The position numbers were made by a program, and so were the translations under genes. The notes under the pieces were generated by a model. The model did not search any database and was not told where the DNA came from. It worked only from the letters and a program-made list of their open reading frames with translations. This document shows, in pieces, positions 3,494 to 49,015 of a stretch of 64,000 bases of DNA. Each line of letters opens with the position of its first letter. The stretch's first letter is position 1. Source of the DNA: Candidatus Methylacidiphilum fumarolicum (lineage in GTDB: Bacteria; Verrucomicrobiota; Verrucomicrobiia; Methylacidiphilales; Methylacidiphilaceae). The stretch covers positions 310,001 through 374,000 of the forward strand of contig NZ_OX458932.1 in assembly GCF_949774925.1 (NCBI RefSeq), written 5' to 3'.

Positions 3494-4957
3494 TTATTTA
3501 TTATTGAGTTCAACAAGTTTTGTTTTTAGAAGTGCTGCTTCTTTCTTAATTTCTTCAAGCTTTTCTTTGGTCAGCGGGCCATTCTTTAGTTCTGCCAATA
3601 GCTCCCTCTGTCTTTTGATAATATACTCTTTTATTTTTTGTCCCTGCTTTTGATATTCGTTCAGGCTGTAATAAGGTTGAGGAGATTGGGATACAGTACA
3701 ACCAGCGATTTCTAAGCTACAAGAAAATGGAATGACGCAGTGGAAAATCATTGTATTATTTGTAGTGGTGACATCGAAAAGATAGGCTTTAAGCTCTTTT
3801 CCAAACACAACGGTTGGTGCAAATTGCTTAGAAAAAGCTTGGGAAAGCTTTTGGTAAAGAGATGCAGGAGTTTCTAAGTAAGTCCAGAGCTCAACTGTTT
3901 GTCCTTCTTTTTTCGTTGCTTCTGTTGGAACCCATACAATCATTATTCCAGTGAATGGAGCCCATACTGGTTCTATGCGATTTGCCGTAAACTGTCCGCA
4001 AACAATCTGCGCTGTTTCATCTTTCCAATAATTCCACAGTTGCTGAATGAAGGAAGAGGGATGCTCTTTATATTTTTGTAGGAGCTGAGAATAATCAAAG
4101 AAAAGTTCTTCTTTGCTTAAAGCTGTCTTTAGTGTCCAACCATAAGGCATGGAACTGGAAAGTTTTGCTTCTTCTTTTTCTAGTACCTTCGATATCTCTA
4201 CTTTCGGTTGGAATAGAGAAAGGAAGGTATCTCTTTTATAGAAGATAAGCATGCCAAGAGCTAAAAAGCCTAGAACCACTAAGGAAAGAGATCTAGGATT
4301 GAGTCTTAAGTCTAATTTCTCTGCCCACTGGATAATCTCTGATCGATCCTGGCTAACAGTTGGTTCTTCCTGTCCACAAGAAATGTCGGTCCATGGAGGC
4401 TGGGTGTCTTTGCCTTTATAAAACCAGAATGAGAGGCTTCGGAAAAGCCAAAGTAAAGGAGCTGAGAGCAAAAAATAGTAGAAAAGGGTCTTAGAAAAAA
4501 ACGAGGCAAGAAAAGCAAAGCCTAAAATAATAGCCGGCTGGATAAGAAACCAGAACCATTGGTTTTGCGGTAGCCCAAAAAGGGGCTCGCCCCAAAATAA
4601 GGGATTGCGTTGGATCTTTTTCTTTTCTTCTTCATAGTAGACAAGAAACACTTGGTAAAAATAGATCAGAGATAAGAGCCCAGAAAAGAGAAGAAAGACG
4701 GTGAGTTCAGAATGGATGCTATGCTTATTTAGCCAGGCTAACACCAGAAGAATACCTAAGGAAGTTAAGAATCGTTTGGGATGGGCATAGTTTTTCCCTA
4801 GTCTGCGGACAGTCAAAAGCTCACAGGGCAAAAACCAGGAGATAAAAAAGAAAAAAAGTTTTTTCAGTAGAATGACCCGGATAGCAAGCGGCCTATCTTT
4901 TTCTGTTTGTTTCATAGTAAGATAAAAACTAAAAAACAAATGGCATGATATTACCAA
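3494..4957 (-). CDS. membrane protein of unknown function
   Basis: This 487-aa protein has about five hydrophobic segments in its first half (around residues 25-45, 65-85, 90-110, 135-175) and another near 220-245. A soluble part (250-430) and a Lys/Glu-rich helical C-terminus follow. I recognise no family. A second possible start is Met15 (position 4915), which would remove a Cys/Phe-rich stretch; neither start has a convincing ribosome site. The gene for the secreted protein follows after 3 bases, suggesting an operon of envelope components. Confidence 0.65.
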   Translation of the reverse strand: MVISCHLFFSFYLTMKQTEKDRPLAIRVILLKKLFFFFISWFLPCELLTVRRLGKNYAHPKRFLTSLGILLVLAWLNKHSIHSELTVFLLFSGLLSLIYFYQVFLVYYEEEKKKIQRNPLFWGEPLFGLPQNQWFWFLIQPAIILGFAFLASFFSKTLFYYFLLSAPLLWLFRSLSFWFYKGKDTQPPWTDISCGQEEPTVSQDRSEIIQWAEKLDLRLNPRSLSLVVLGFLALGMLIFYKRDTFLSLFQPKVEISKVLEKEEAKLSSSMPYGWTLKTALSKEELFFDYSQLLQKYKEHPSSFIQQLWNYWKDETAQIVCGQFTANRIEPVWAPFTGIMIVWVPTEATKKEGQTVELWTYLETPASLYQKLSQAFSKQFAPTVVFGKELKAYLFDVTTTNNTMIFHCVIPFSCSLEIAGCTVSQSPQPYYSLNEYQKQGQKIKEYIIKRQRELLAELKNGPLTKEKLEEIKKEAALLKTKLVELNNK

Positions 4958-9960: not shown

Positions 9961-11262
9961 TCATGATGGGGGTTGGGTCTTTTCATGCTGCTTTTGTGGG
10001 AGGAATGAAACAAGAATAAAACTACCTATGAAGTAAAACAGGGGGAGAAGCATCGGGGTTTTAAAGGAGTTTGTGGCAATAAAAAGATAGCTAAAAGACA
10101 AGGGGCCAATACCAGTTGCAATCCGGCAAATCAGACCCCAAAGACCAAAATGCTTGCCGATTTTGTCTTCCTCAGACAAAAGACTCATAACGGCTCGGGC
10201 AAGGGAAAGAAGAGAACCGTTTCCAATACCAATGAGAAAGGAAGCGACGTAGAAGGAGGTTTTTGTTTCAGCAAAAACAAGGCTGCTAACACAACCGATC
10301 CAAAGCAAAAGATCTAGTTGAAGGGATTTTCGGGATCCTAATTTGTCTTGGAAAAACCCAAAAATAAAAGAACCAAGAGTCCCACCTGCTTGAATCAACA
10401 GGAAGATGCCTACCTGTTGGGCTCCCGTAATGCCGTATTCCATCTGCGCATAGACCGCTAGTATAATCATGAGGATAGTGGCTGCAGAAAAGAAAAGGAA
10501 AGAAGCAGCAAAATAAAGAAGCAGGGGTTTATTATGCGCAATGAGAAGAGCCGTTTCTTTAAGGTCAGTGAGGATTTTTAGAAGCGCTTGAGCAAAACTT
10601 TTGGTATGAGTGGATTTTTTTTGAAGTTCCAGATTAAAGAAAAGTGGAAAACCGCACATCATATAGATAGCTGCAACGATAGGGAAACAGAGTCGAAGAA
10701 GTTCAGTATTCGACACCGTAAAGCCTGGAGATAAAAGAGGATAAACAAGTAATAAGCTAAAAATGCCGCCTATGTTCCCAAAAGCTCTTGTCCAGCCTGA
10801 AAATCTACCGACAGAAGGGGGGGGAATCAGTTCGGGTAGAAAACTTGAAAAAATATTTTCGGTAAAAGAAAAGGAAATATTCGCTAAGGAATAACACAAG
10901 AGGCTTTTCCAGACATCTCCTTCGTGAGTCGTTCCTAAAAGAGCTGTTGCAAGGATACAGATTACAAAAAAGAACCCAAGAAGAAATTTTCTTTTAGCGA
11001 TGCAATCGGATAAGGCGCCGATAAAAGGGAGAAAGATCGCTACAAAAATTTGAGTGAAAAATGCCGCCATTCCCAACAGAAACGTCCCATCAGTTCTCCG
11101 GGCACAGATGATTTGGACGAAATAAAGACTGAAAACCAGATCCACAAGAACGATGCTAAAAGAGACATTTCCTAGATCAAATATGCCCCAAGACAATTTT
11201 TCTCTAAGCCCAACAGTTGTAGTTGGCTTTAAGATGATCTCTTTGGTATGGGCTTCATTCAT
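9961..11262 (-). CDS. UMF1-type MFS transporter (paralogue 1)
   Basis: This 433-aa protein has twelve predicted membrane segments and the N-terminal signature SWGIFDLGNVSFSIVLVDLVF typical of UMF1 (Atg22-like) MFS proteins, plus an MFS loop GALSDCIAKRK. The substrate is unknown; in bacteria such proteins are only tentatively linked to efflux or amino-acid movement. It is clearly homologous along its length to the gene at 11377-12690, which lies 114 bases upstream on the same strand, so the pair looks like a tandem duplication. Confidence 0.78.
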   Translation of the reverse strand: MNEAHTKEIILKPTTTVGLREKLSWGIFDLGNVSFSIVLVDLVFSLYFVQIICARRTDGTFLLGMAAFFTQIFVAIFLPFIGALSDCIAKRKFLLGFFFVICILATALLGTTHEGDVWKSLLCYSLANISFSFTENIFSSFLPELIPPPSVGRFSGWTRAFGNIGGIFSLLLVYPLLSPGFTVSNTELLRLCFPIVAAIYMMCGFPLFFNLELQKKSTHTKSFAQALLKILTDLKETALLIAHNKPLLLYFAASFLFFSAATILMIILAVYAQMEYGITGAQQVGIFLLIQAGGTLGSFIFGFFQDKLGSRKSLQLDLLLWIGCVSSLVFAETKTSFYVASFLIGIGNGSLLSLARAVMSLLSEEDKIGKHFGLWGLICRIATGIGPLSFSYLFIATNSFKTPMLLPLFYFIGSFILVSFLPQKQHEKTQPPS

Positions 11263-44536: not shown

Positions 44537-45130
44537 TTAGTACACAGGAGATTGTGCGAGTCGAGTCGAAGGCTTGCTTCTTTTATGCGAGGGGGGGGTC
44601 TGTGGTGGGATAACCACTCTCTCATAGGCAAGCCGGTAAAGCTTCACCTTCGAATATTCCTTTGGCCAAAGTTGCCAAAGGGAAGCTTGCTGATAAAAAT
44701 CTGAATACCATTTTCCCTTGTAATAGATTTCCATATGTCCGTAATGACTTTTTTTCCTAGGATAAAGAATATGGACATCGAAATCCCTTGGCTGTGAATT
44801 TGGAGACTGCTCTCTATATAACCCTGTTTTGACCAATGCCTCCCCATATTCCTTGGCATAATCCTTTCGATCTAATGGTCTGCCAATAAGTTTTTCAATA
44901 CAAGTGCGGACTACCCGAGCACACATTCCCCCTGATGTTTTCCTTCTTTTTGGTAAAGACGATTCAAATTCTTTTTTATTAATAATGACGCCATTTGGAC
45001 CTAGAGGAGTAAAACATTTAATTTTTTTGCAAGGCTCCTTTGATGCTTTTGCTAAAAGCGACTCTGTTCTACCGAAAGAAAGAAAAACGGTAGCACCAAC
45101 AAGGATATAAACCGAGAATCTAGAACCCAT
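44537..45130 (-). CDS. secreted NlpC/CHAP-like putative cysteine hydrolase
   Basis: The 197-aa protein has a signal peptide (about 1-27) and a domain with GGMCARVVRTCIEKLIG (Cys70) and HYGHMEIYYKGKWYSDF (His132). This Cys/His spacing recalls NlpC/P60 or CHAP amidases that cut peptidoglycan peptides. The third catalytic residue is not obvious. It lies upstream of, and divergent from, the amine-dehydrogenase operon. A periplasmic cell-wall role is inferred. Confidence 0.5.
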   Translation of the reverse strand: MGSRFSVYILVGATVFLSFGRTESLLAKASKEPCKKIKCFTPLGPNGVIINKKEFESSLPKRRKTSGGMCARVVRTCIEKLIGRPLDRKDYAKEYGEALVKTGLYREQSPNSQPRDFDVHILYPRKKSHYGHMEIYYKGKWYSDFYQQASLWQLWPKEYSKVKLYRLAYERVVIPPQTPPSHKRSKPSTRLAQSPVY

Positions 45131-45313: not shown

Positions 45314-45523
45314 ATGGAGGATGGCTTCGATTGAAACCATCCTATATCAGGAAGGCAGCTAGTAGTTTTAGATAAAGCATTAAAGAACGAAACATGCCTC
45401 ACAGATTCCTAGGTATTGAGAAAGGGGTCCATTACGTAGCCTAGGAGTATATTAGGGATCTTATACAGGAGAAAGGATTTTGCTATAGAAACCTTCACCA
45501 CTGTTTCTCTTCCTCAACCTTCA

Positions 45524-46519
45524 GTGGATCAGCTCTTTACTGTAGCCAATCGGAAGGCTTTTTTAATCGATGTCCCAAAGAAAAAAGTTCTTGGAATGAT
45601 CGATCTTGGCTACATGGGCAATATAGTCCTTAGTTCCGACCGTAAGTTTCTCTACGCTGTAGAAACATTTTATAGTAGAGGAACAAGAGGCATTAGAACC
45701 GACGTCATCACTGTCTATGATACGAAAAATCTTTCGGTCCTCCACGAAATAGAAATCCCCCCAAAACGCTTCCTTTGTGTGATTAAAAAAAATACTCAAG
45801 CATTGAGTGGGGATAACCGTTTTCTTCTTGTATGCAATATTAGCCCAGCTAGTTCGGTTAGTGTTGTCGATCTTCACCAACAAAGACTCGTTAAGGAAAT
45901 TCCCACCCCCGGTTATGTTTTGCTTTATCCTTATGAAACCAGACGTTTTGCAATGATTGGACAGGATGGAGGCCTACTACTTCTTTCATTAAACAAAGCA
46001 GGCCAGGTAGAAGAAAAAAAACGTATTTTCCCCGGTTTTTCCTTGGCAGATCCTATATTCGAGCATGGGGTATATCTCAAAAGCGCAAACCAATACTATT
46101 TCGTTTCCTATGAAGGGATGCTTTGGTCTTTGAGTCTTTCTGGATTAAGCGCAACGTGGGAACAAAAATGGAATATAGCTTCTGGTAGTGGTTGGAGGCC
46201 CTGTGGCTGGCAGCTTTTGAGTTGCGATCCAGAAGAAAGACATTTTTATATTCTTATGCACAAAGCACCTAAGGGAAAGCATAAGGATAGTGGCACCGAA
46301 GTTTGGGAAATTGGAAGGGATGATGGGGTAGTCAAAAGAAAAATAGCTTTAGATCGACCGGTAGATTCCATTCGCATTGTAGCCAAAGAAGAAACTTTAC
46401 TCTGCGGTCTATGTCGCAAAGCCTATCTGGATATTTATGATCTTCGTAATGGAACTAAAACTGCAGAGATAGAAGAATTAGGAGAAGAAGCGCTTCTACT
46501 TATAGGATATGATGGCTGA
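45524..46519 (+). CDS. TTQ amine dehydrogenase heavy (beta-propeller) chain, N-terminus unclear
   Basis: The 331-aa chain matches the seven-bladed propeller heavy subunit of methylamine/aromatic amine dehydrogenase (MauB/AauB), for example VETFYSRGTRGIRTDVITVYD, IPPKRF and SPASSVSVVDL. The PPKR and SPA(T/S)S features look closer to AauB than MauB, by memory of those sequences. The heavy chain should be periplasmic, yet I find no signal peptide. The frame stays open upstream to TAG 45437, and homology-like residues (TFTTVSLPQP) lie before GTG 45524, but no ATG, GTG or TTG start exists there. An AGGAG at 45467-45471 has no start in frame at normal distance except ATA 45485. mauE follows after 5 bases. 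Confidence 0.8.
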   Translation: MDQLFTVANRKAFLIDVPKKKVLGMIDLGYMGNIVLSSDRKFLYAVETFYSRGTRGIRTDVITVYDTKNLSVLHEIEIPPKRFLCVIKKNTQALSGDNRFLLVCNISPASSVSVVDLHQQRLVKEIPTPGYVLLYPYETRRFAMIGQDGGLLLLSLNKAGQVEEKKRIFPGFSLADPIFEHGVYLKSANQYYFVSYEGMLWSLSLSGLSATWEQKWNIASGSGWRPCGWQLLSCDPEERHFYILMHKAPKGKHKDSGTEVWEIGRDDGVVKRKIALDRPVDSIRIVAKEETLLCGLCRKAYLDIYDLRNGTKTAEIEELGEEALLLIGYDG

Positions 46520-46524
46520 AGAAA

Positions 46525-47067
46525 ATGAACACTCCCATATTCCAAAATACCATTGAGTATTTTTTCTTTGACCTTTTTCTGTATTCTGCCATCCAAAAGA
46601 TCCTCCATTTTTCTCCTTTTACTCGATCCGTGGAAAGCTACAGGCTGCTGCCAACATACCTTGTGGTTCCTTTATCGATCCTCATTATCCTCTCTGAAAT
46701 TGGAGTGGCTGGCTCTTTTCTTTCTATCCCCACACAAGCTAGTGCATCTTTTGCACTGATCCTTTTAATAAGCTTCTCAATAGCTATTTTGGTTAATCTT
46801 CTTAGAGGAAACAAAAAGATCGATTGCGGCTGTTTTGGCCATTCCAAAGAGGTCTCCTCATGGATGATTCTTGTTAGAAATATCATTTTGTGCGGTATCT
46901 TGGTCCTTCTCTATCTTCTTCCTTCAGCTCTGCGGTTCCCCACATTCTGGGAGCGAGTATTTTCTTTCTGGATGGGCACTATTTTTTTCGTCATTTTTTC
47001 AGGTTGGAACCAAATCATTACCAATGCTTCTCTACCTTTATTGAAAAAAAAGATGCTTTATGACTGA
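46525..47067 (+). CDS. mauE: MauE-like membrane protein for amine dehydrogenase maturation
   Basis: The 180-aa protein has about four membrane helices (near 15-30, 45-65, 75-93, 115-130, with one more at the end) and CGCFG (Cys101, Cys103) in the loop KKIDCGCFGHS, the MauE signature. MauE works with MauD in forming or handling the disulfides of the light chain. It lies between the heavy-chain gene and mauD, overlapping mauD by 8 bases, the same order as in mau and aau operons. Confidence 0.87.
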   Translation: MNTPIFQNTIEYFFFDLFLYSAIQKILHFSPFTRSVESYRLLPTYLVVPLSILIILSEIGVAGSFLSIPTQASASFALILLISFSIAILVNLLRGNKKIDCGCFGHSKEVSSWMILVRNIILCGILVLLYLLPSALRFPTFWERVFSFWMGTIFFVIFSGWNQIITNASLPLLKKKMLYD

Positions 47068-47716
47068 ACTGCTTATTGCTTCCCTTATTCTGTCGTGGGT
47101 GGCGATCGGCTTTCTAGCCCTCGTTCTTCTTGCACTTGCTCGACAGATCGGCATCCTTCACGAAAGGATCGCCCCGCTAGGAGCCTTGTCATTTCAGGGG
47201 GGAATCAAGGTTGGAGAAAAATCTCCATTGTTTGAATTAAAAGACCTGGATCAGAATCGGCCGCCAGTACGAATCGGAGGGGAACATCCTTTGAAAAAAA
47301 ATAGCCTTCTTTTATTTGTTTCTCCTTCTTGTCCAATTTGTAAGAAGCTTCTACCTGGAGTCGCTTCTTTGAGTCGGTCACTCAACAATCTAGATATAAT
47401 CTTTGCCAGTGATGGAGAAAATCTTGCTGCCCATCAACAGTACAGAGCCTCCACATTCTTATCCCCATTCCCCTATGTCCTTTCAAGAGAGCTTGGGGTT
47501 GCCTTTGGAGTGAGCGCTCTTCCCTACGCGATTTATCTTGACGCAGAAGGAAAAGTTATGGCAAAAGGACTTGTGAACAATTTAGAGCAGCTAGAAGGAT
47601 TGCTCCATCCTGTTCAAAAACAGGGAGAAGAATCAAAGGAAAACCTAAAGCTCTCCCTTTCCAAAAAAGACTTTTCGAGATCCCAAGACTTCAAAAACAC
47701 CAATCAACCAGCATGA
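47060..47716 (+). CDS. mauD: MauD-like thioredoxin-fold protein
   Basis: The 218-aa protein has one N-terminal membrane helix (about 5-28) and a periplasmic thioredoxin-like domain with the CxxC motif SPSCPICKKLLPG (Cys91, Cys94). MauD is required to make the many disulfides of the light chain, probably as an isomerase or oxidase. A charged tail follows the domain. It overlaps mauE by 8 bases and the light-chain gene by 4 bases (ATGA). Confidence 0.9.
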   Translation: MTELLIASLILSWVAIGFLALVLLALARQIGILHERIAPLGALSFQGGIKVGEKSPLFELKDLDQNRPPVRIGGEHPLKKNSLLLFVSPSCPICKKLLPGVASLSRSLNNLDIIFASDGENLAAHQQYRASTFLSPFPYVLSRELGVAFGVSALPYAIYLDAEGKVMAKGLVNNLEQLEGLLHPVQKQGEESKENLKLSLSKKDFSRSQDFKNTNQPA

Positions 47717-48255
47717 ATTGGATCGATCGGCTAGTCGAGTTCTGGTCTCGTCGCCTTGCCCTACGTGGTTCCAGGCGTGGGTTTCTGACTTCTTTGGCTT
47801 TATTTTTGGGAGCAGCCTGCAAACTCTTGCCTGCTCCCATAGAACGCACCCAAAGCCAAAGCACAGCTCCAGAAGAGAAGGAGCTGACAGAGAAGACAAA
47901 CAATGAGTCTTCCTGCGCCTACTGGAGGTATTGCAGCATCGATGGGTTTCTTTGCAGCTGTTGCGGTGGAGGAGTCACGGCGTGCCCACCGGGAACATTC
48001 CCTTCTCCAACCCACTGGGTCGGAAGCTGCAGAAATCCGCTGGATGGCAAGCAGTATCTGATTTCGTATAGGGATTGCTGTGGAAAGGGAGCCTGCGGTA
48101 GGTGCTACTGTCAGCAAACCAATGAAACAGAAATGCCTGTTTATCAAATCAACCGGAATAACGATACGATCTGGTGTTTTGGAGCACCGAATATGATGTA
48201 TCATTGTACAGGAGCCTCCATCTTAGGATTAGCTCAGGATTTTCATAAAGAATGA
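47713..48255 (+). CDS. mauA: TTQ amine dehydrogenase light chain (MauA/AauA)
   Basis: The 180-aa precursor carries the catalytic cofactor tryptophan tryptophylquinone. The leader has a twin-arginine-type stretch (SRRGFLTSLALFLGAA, 20-35). The mature part has Trp102 (HWVGSC) and Trp154 (NDTIWCFG), which align with the two tryptophans cross-linked in TTQ, and Asp121 (SYRDCCGK), the family's catalytic aspartate. Fourteen cysteines (68, 74, 81, 83, 84, 91, 106, 122, 123, 128, 131, 133, 155, 165) fit the six-disulfide chain plus two more. Methylamine and aromatic amine substrates cannot be told apart from this chain alone. Confidence 0.94.
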   Translation: MNWIDRLVEFWSRRLALRGSRRGFLTSLALFLGAACKLLPAPIERTQSQSTAPEEKELTEKTNNESSCAYWRYCSIDGFLCSCCGGGVTACPPGTFPSPTHWVGSCRNPLDGKQYLISYRDCCGKGACGRCYCQQTNETEMPVYQINRNNDTIWCFGAPNMMYHCTGASILGLAQDFHKE

Positions 48256-48264
48256 ATAGGAAAA

Positions 48265-48807
48265 ATGTCTTCTTTTTTGCTATTTCGATCATGCCCTGCT
48301 AAATGGCATCGAATCTTCCATAGGAATATGGCTAGAAGTTTATTGCCAGTGGTATTTTTATCTGCTTTAGCTCTTTTTCTCATTTCCTCAGAAATGTTGT
48401 TAGCTATGCCACAAGAACAGGCATTATATTTCCTTCACTGTGCAGGCTGTCATGGCTTAAAAGGAGAAGGAATCGCTGGAGTCGCTCCTCAAATTGCTCA
48501 AACGATCGACTTTTTCCTTCTAAGCCCTGAGGGCAGAAAATATGTAATCCAAGTGCCTGGGGTTGCTTTTTCTTCCATACCCGATGAGGCACTTGCAGAG
48601 CTGTTAAACTGGCTTATTCTGAATTTTGGTCAGACGAAAAGAAAATTTCAAAAATACACGACTCAAGAAGTTGCGGTTGCAAGAAAAGAACCCTTGCTCG
48701 ATATTGACGAGGCAAGAAAAAGGATTTTGCAAACACTTCCAGAAAAAATCATCTTAATCAAGTCCTGGCAACGCTACGCTACATTCAATACAAAAAGTAT
48801 CAAATAG
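48265..48807 (+). CDS. monoheme cytochrome c of the amine-dehydrogenase operon
   Basis: The 180-aa protein has a signal/anchor segment (about 23-47) and one heme-binding CAGCH (Cys59, Cys62, His63). The following YVIQVPGVAFSSIPDEALAELLNW stretch is shared, as I recall, with small cytochromes encoded next to amine dehydrogenase genes. There is no Met after the heme site, so the usual distal ligand is missing. It lies 9 bases after the light-chain stop, so it is probably the electron acceptor or a helper. No amicyanin/azurin or MauG gene is seen. Confidence 0.82.
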   Translation: MSSFLLFRSCPAKWHRIFHRNMARSLLPVVFLSALALFLISSEMLLAMPQEQALYFLHCAGCHGLKGEGIAGVAPQIAQTIDFFLLSPEGRKYVIQVPGVAFSSIPDEALAELLNWLILNFGQTKRKFQKYTTQEVAVARKEPLLDIDEARKRILQTLPEKIILIKSWQRYATFNTKSIK

Positions 48808-48929: not shown

Positions 48930-49015
48930 GCCCTCGTGGCGGAATGGCAGACGCACAGGACTTAAAATCCTGTGAACCGAATAGGTTCGTGCGGGTTCGA
49001 GTCCCGCCGAGGGCA
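48930..49015 (+). tRNA. tRNA-Leu (anticodon TAA)
   Basis: The acceptor GCCCTCG (48930-48936) pairs with CGAGGGC (49008-49014), followed by discriminator A. The anticodon stem ACAGGA/TCCTGT holds the loop CTTAAAA with anticodon TAA. The variable arm is long (GAACC...GGTTC) and the T arm is GCGGGTTCGAGTCCCGC, as in class II leucine tRNAs. Element copy D begins about 20 bases downstream. Confidence 0.96.

Follow-up and report, generated by a model that had tools for sequence, protein, structure and literature searches.

How would a TTQ-dependent amine dehydrogenase be matured, and brought to the periplasm, when its operon contains no mauG and its heavy chain carries no signal peptide? The question is raised by five compact genes, all on one strand, at positions 45485-48807 of the window, a 64,000-nucleotide stretch (310001-374000) of the single-contig genome (2,476,671 bases) of a hot-spring methane-eating bacterium, a verrucomicrobial methanotroph of the genus Methylacidiphilum. 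Such a host had been suspected in the first-pass annotation of this DNA, and the nearest named relative, Methylacidiphilum sp. Yel (93% light-chain identity), bears this out. Our overall reading, to which we give a probability of roughly two in three, is that of a functional, vertically inherited, mauG-less TTQ operon of the BEDA-cytochrome type, with a leaderless heavy chain and predicted co-export through Tat.

A TTQ operon of aau-type layout

Family matches confirmed the heavy chain, mauE, mauD, light chain and monoheme cytochrome c genes where the first-pass annotation had placed them:

45472-45477, + strand: AAAGGA, a Shine-Dalgarno-like motif 7 nt ahead of an ATA codon, kept in 5/5 Methylacidiphilum genomes
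45485-46519, + strand: heavy chain of a TTQ amine dehydrogenase, of mauB/aauB type (PF06433); it runs over 344 codons from a putative AUA start and lacks a signal peptide
46525-47067, + strand: MauE, membrane protein for light-chain maturation (PF07291, 97.7 bits)
47060-47716, + strand: MauD, membrane-anchored, thioredoxin-like, with CPIC (TIGR02661, 166.9 bits, under the 188.6 cut-off)
47713-48255, + strand: TTQ light chain with a twin-arginine SRRGFL signal (PF02975); residues compared in 112 light chains
48265-48807, + strand: small cytochrome c with a single heme; CAGCH lies at 48439-48453, and the Met-ligand loop is lost

The heavy and light chains, each encoded once genome-wide, match Me-amine-dh_H at 151.8 bits (cut-off 21) and Me-amine-dh_L at 159.2 bits (cut-off 25), respectively, and the small cytochrome matches the cytochrome c family at 23.6 bits (cut-off 21.3). 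The light chain has 14 Cys in its mature part and keeps Trp102 and Trp154 of TTQ (precursor numbering) and the catalytic Asp121, all three being invariant in 112/112 light chains compared. This cofactor Trp pair and Asp in a Cys-rich light chain place the operon in the TTQ-dependent amine dehydrogenase superfamily.

The operon does not match the mau-type methylamine dehydrogenases (MADH): mauG and a cupredoxin acceptor are lacking, the heavy chain lies outside the MADH clade, and the NCBIfam MADH equivalog cut-offs are missed (TIGR02658, 164.6 vs. 454; TIGR02659, 167.5 vs. 197; TIGR02661, 166.9 vs. 188.6). Heavy and light chains, MauE, MauD, TTQ residues and propeller fold are shared with the mauFBEDACJGMN system of Paracoccus denitrificans, but mauF, mauC (amicyanin), mauJ, mauG, mauM and mauN are all absent from the locus. 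Phe55, which shapes the active site of MADH, sits on a loop that is missing here, and methylamine specificity is therefore not to be assumed.

The layout is of the aau type known from Alcaligenes, with the BEDA order followed by a cytochrome gene and no mau accessory genes. The aromatic (aralkylamine) amine dehydrogenase (AADH) of Alcaligenes faecalis is encoded by aauBEDA and cytochrome genes, and an aauBEDA-type operon on the P. aeruginosa RW109 plasmid LT969519 was used as comparison. Shared with the aau system are the order heavy chain-MauE-MauD-light chain-cytochrome, the lack of mauG, mauF, mauJ and amicyanin, a 14-Cys light chain and the closest heavy chain by sequence (123 bits vs. 106 for MADH). 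The Methylacidiphilum heavy chain differs from that of AADH, however, in forming its own deep clade and in having neither leader nor disulfide; its substrate-channel loop is shorter, and the genome contains no azurin-like gene.

The operon is present in 5/5 Methylacidiphilum genomes and in 0/8 other genomes of the family. We take two of the five to be M. infernorum V4 and M. kamchatkense Kam1, and the present one to be M. fumariolicum SolV. Since all five carry the operon next to the same upstream neighbour genes, i.e. at a shared locus, it goes back to the common ancestor of Methylacidiphilum, and the five genomes represent a single evolutionary event. The first-pass annotation considered a periplasmic amine oxidation system in such a methanotroph noteworthy, but the orthologous operon at the same locus of V4 (mauBEDA-moxG, Minf_1997-2001) was already described in the 2008 genome paper, where it is labelled methylamine dehydrogenase and where a reviewer preferred to leave the substrate of the amine dehydrogenase unspecified (PMC2474590).

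TTQ maturation and the small cytochrome

The lack of mauG, amicyanin and further mau genes first noted in the window extends to the whole genome, in which there is no complete mau set and no PF00127 match (cupredoxins: amicyanin, azurin). A genome-wide search for MauG-like diheme proteins gave one strong CCP_MauG-type gene (C1:514084-514530), far from the operon and outside the window. It leaves room for a true mau-type MADH matured by a distant diheme protein, as implied for V4, whose authors placed a 'MauG homolog', Minf_1905, away from the operon (PMC2474590). The diheme protein, however, matches solved cytochrome c peroxidases at 336 bits vs. 99 for MauG, and scores 181 bits against a MauG cut-off of 444. 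The TIGR03791 cut-off was rejected as a MauG detector, because even the MauG of P. denitrificans reaches no more than 94.6 bits; the criteria used in its place were a complete lack of matches and the identity, Tyr or Met, of the ligand residue. Where MauG has its Tyr axial ligand (Tyr294) the protein has Met, and the Tyr-bearing MauG segment is missing. Nor does the gene track the operon: most sister genomes without TTQ genes have it, and a search of the operon-bearing Yel assembly did not turn it up. Its peroxidase-type matches and Met ligand identify the diheme protein as a CcpA-type bacterial cytochrome c peroxidase and not as MauG. With six mau genes missing at the locus, no cupredoxin genome-wide and a heavy chain outside the mauG-type clade, we see very little chance of a mau-type enzyme matured in this way, and neither the methylamine dehydrogenase nor the 'MauG homolog' label of V4 is supported here.

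The first-pass annotation stressed the missing mauG, an emphasis that comparison with other genomes did not bear out. Among 398 evenly drawn Pseudomonadota genomes, TTQ light chains were present in 11, and all of their 13 loci were mauG-less and of the BEDA-cytochrome kind. About 100 loci of the order heavy chain-MauE-MauD-light chain outside Methylacidiphilum (a few counted twice) have no nearby mauG and all have the small cytochrome, sometimes placed after a normal cytochrome. No MauG-family match at E 1e-10 was obtained in 14/35 genomes with mauG-less TTQ loci, in a search that does recover the divergent P. denitrificans MauG. Judged by gene content, a missing mauG is the rule for BEDA-cytochrome TTQ operons, and hence ordinary. 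To our knowledge, TTQ formation in MauG-less enzymes, apparently the majority, is an unsolved problem.

Five mauG-type loci (Paracoccus, Methylobacterium, Indioceanicola) are without the small cytochrome. In a heavy-chain tree, four mauG-type loci formed one clade and Methylacidiphilum a separate deep clade (100/100 in both cases). The comparison with known Mau and Aau chains proposed in the first-pass annotation thus sets the heavy chain outside the mauG-type clade, in a tree whose deep splits are unresolved and which does not include the A. faecalis AADH sequence. At none of the loci compared do mauG and the small cytochrome occur together, an exclusion that amounts to a single evolutionary event, since the mauG-type loci fall into one clade.

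The small cytochrome has the same fold as Thermus cytochrome c552 (Z 11.0, 3.1 A over 107 residues) but is about 20 residues shorter, the Met-ligand loop being among those lost. Beyond CxxCH, the aligned small cytochromes have no other conserved His, Lys or Met, and a Tyr four residues ahead of CxxCH is near-invariant. Closest to the place of the Met ligand stands a Met in 66/104 cytochromes, all from Pseudomonas or close kin, and V, I, A or S in the others; with a Met adjoining that place in so many, Met-ligand loss was rejected as a fixed trait. In the Methylacidiphilum protein, which has no Met loop and no conserved sixth-ligand candidate, the distal heme site is likely open. An open site would fit a peroxide-activated heme, making the small cytochrome a candidate for the TTQ step. 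That it is the TTQ-forming enzyme replacing MauG nevertheless seems improbable to us; its alternative role would be that of a plain electron carrier.

A heavy chain without leader or disulfide

The start of the operon at 45440 given by the first-pass annotation is merely the first codon past an in-frame TAG (45437-45439), and the five genomes share no ATG, GTG or TTG there or anywhere upstream of codon 38, the first common ATG. The stretch ahead of codon 38 reads as coding, with third-position changes dominating and a pN/pS of 0.11-0.44 for codons 2-37. An ATA GAA, with AAAGGA 6-7 nt upstream, is common to 5/5 genomes, and in one of them (L089) an in-frame TAG lies eight codons ahead of the ATA, which confines the start to within a few codons of it. 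Conservation of the ATA is by itself modest evidence, since AUA accounts for 14-22% of the Ile codons in the operon genes. A GTG at 45524 was rejected as start: it is GTA in the genome taken as Kam1, and coding constraint reaches upstream of it. Mapped AUA starts in S. aureus yield roughly 10-30% of AUG (PMC13009471). Initiation at AUA (ATA 45485) is the probable reading of these alignments.

The heavy-chain alignment begins at the mature N-terminus of its relatives, i.e. past their signal peptide, and a hydrophobic leader is found in every relative with an intact 5′ end. A heavy-chain signal peptide, usual in the TTQ superfamily (if perhaps inessential), is thus absent in 5/5 Methylacidiphilum genomes, and there is no second heavy chain with a leader genome-wide. 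A leader might be hidden upstream, or reached by frameshifting, as hinted at by a hydrophobic in-frame upstream ORF in L089, MKFEFLPNFFSVCNLFLFSLSLTS, though this is closed by two stops. It is not conserved in the other four genomes, which share no hidden leader in other frames either; stops occur in every frame, the upstream DNA has no coding pattern, and the loss of the disulfide would be left unexplained. We give this explanation hardly any credit and consider the heavy chain very likely to be leaderless. Where 99/99 relatives have the Cys pair of a disulfide, all Methylacidiphilum have Tyr and Gly, and five further heavy-chain Cys are conserved solely within the genus.

The loss of a canonical start, leader and disulfide could also mean that the operon is decaying and the enzyme dead. 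MauE evolves fast (w 0.33-0.44), and V4 did not grow on methylamine (PMC2474590). All five heavy chains, however, run through 344 codons with zero stops and zero frameshifts, at a dN/dS of 0.05-0.16 that is on average the lowest in the operon. Between V4 and SolV, about 80% of synonymous sites have changed while protein identity is still 65%, and the codons ahead of the first ATG are constrained as well. Both mauA and mauB are transcribed in SolV (24-450 RPKM; PMC3404531, PMC5623727), so that the objection of a silent operon, raised in the first-pass annotation, does not apply. Decay is thus most improbable, and we hold with high confidence that the operon specifies a working TTQ amine dehydrogenase made without mauG. 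In an AF2 model built from the AUA start the propeller is complete, with a TM-score of 0.91 against 2BBK, the heavy chain of MADH. A heavy chain that has neither leader nor disulfide, probably starts at AUA and is kept under strong purifying selection throughout the genus is surprising and seems to be unreported; the part of the V4 genome paper used here makes no mention of it (PMC2474590).

Export and proposed mechanism

Loss of the leader and the disulfide, together with the gain of free Cys, suggests that the heavy chain folds in the cytoplasm. It might then stay there in a separate role, with the light chain exported alone, which would account for the missing leader, the lost disulfide and the unpaired Cys. 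Its retention in one operon with light chain, MauE and MauD in 5/5 genomes argues against this, as does the overall fold, which the model predicts to be retained. We know of no TTQ heavy chain with a cytoplasmic use, which also counts against such a role, and we regard it as unlikely.

Hydrogenases provide a precedent for export of a folded partner: a subunit without its own signal is carried through Tat with a signalled one. The RR motif is present in 5/5 Methylacidiphilum light chains, and the genome encodes TatC. The Tat signal is by itself no proof of co-export, since 106/107 relatives pair a twin-arginine light chain with a Sec-leadered heavy chain, and a 14-Cys light chain would be hard to fold before export, which counts against it. 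Tat co-export of heavy and light chain would explain how a periplasmic enzyme can have a heavy chain with no leader; we propose it tentatively, at somewhat less than even odds. The heavy chain would then be a natural Tat hitchhiker, having dropped its own leader and disulfide and leaving the cell bound to a Tat-signalled partner.

The mechanism we propose starts from a mauG-less operon of BEDA-cytochrome layout that would be ancestral to Methylacidiphilum. The AUA start may keep heavy-chain synthesis low; the heavy chain would fold in the reducing cytoplasm and, once folded, leave through the Tat pore with the twin-arginine light chain. Outside, MauE and MauD would make the light-chain disulfides, and TTQ would be finished without MauG. 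The enzyme would convert a primary amine to aldehyde and ammonium and pass the electrons to a c-type cytochrome, an acceptor suggested by the lack of any cupredoxin in the genome. That at least one of the two, a Tat-hitchhiking heavy chain or a MauG-replacing cytochrome, holds and brings clear experimental novelty we rate as unlikely, if less so than the MauG replacement taken singly.

Globally, our data correct the claim of a 'MauG homolog' in V4, and the survey narrows MauG-less TTQ formation to operons whose only constant addition is the gene for a small, putatively open-heme cytochrome. In Methylacidiphilum, the heavy chain would provide a clean natural case of an exported-type subunit that has lost its leader and disulfide under selection, in which co-export can be tested.

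The diheme protein and the published 'MauG homolog'

The genome paper for M. infernorum V4 names a 'MauG homolog', Minf_1905 (PMC2474590), whose putative counterpart is L103 in G009, the genome that we take as V4. The Met motif of L002, the SolV gene for a diheme CCP_MauG-type protein outside the window, is also present in L103. Judged by sequence, the 'MauG homolog' of the V4 paper is most likely a Met-ligated peroxidase of the CcpA type.

The operon and its flanks within the genus

The operon is bordered by the following features:

44537-45130, gene upstream of the operon, divergent from it
48930-49015, tRNA-Leu (TAA anticodon), immediately 3' of the operon

The upstream gene looks frameshifted in the strain of L091 (taken as M. 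kamchatkense Kam1), because the match to its counterpart there (~9994-10586) breaks into two parts that lie in different reading frames. Beyond the tRNA, no gene is convincing for about 1 kb.

In L089, a locus of another Methylacidiphilum genome, a hydrophobic ORF of 24 codons with an ATG start lies 5' of position 4446 in the frame of the heavy chain, two TAG codons separating it from the heavy-chain ATA (the putative start codon). It is possibly the relic of a lost heavy-chain leader, or else due to chance.

Within the genus, MauE (46525-47067) changes far quicker than the other membrane gene and the dehydrogenase genes (dN/dS 0.33-0.44 vs. 0.05-0.22 for heavy chain, MauD and light chain).

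TTQ loci without mauG

The Halieaceae locus L009 is a duplicated TTQ locus; a second heavy chain gene and a second light chain gene precede its E-D-L-cytochrome set. Some mauG-less TTQ operons outside Methylacidiphilum (L128, L129, L130, L134, L183 and L184) encode a pair of cytochromes of which just one has the Met-ligand loop, which suggests that labour is split between an electron carrier and another function.
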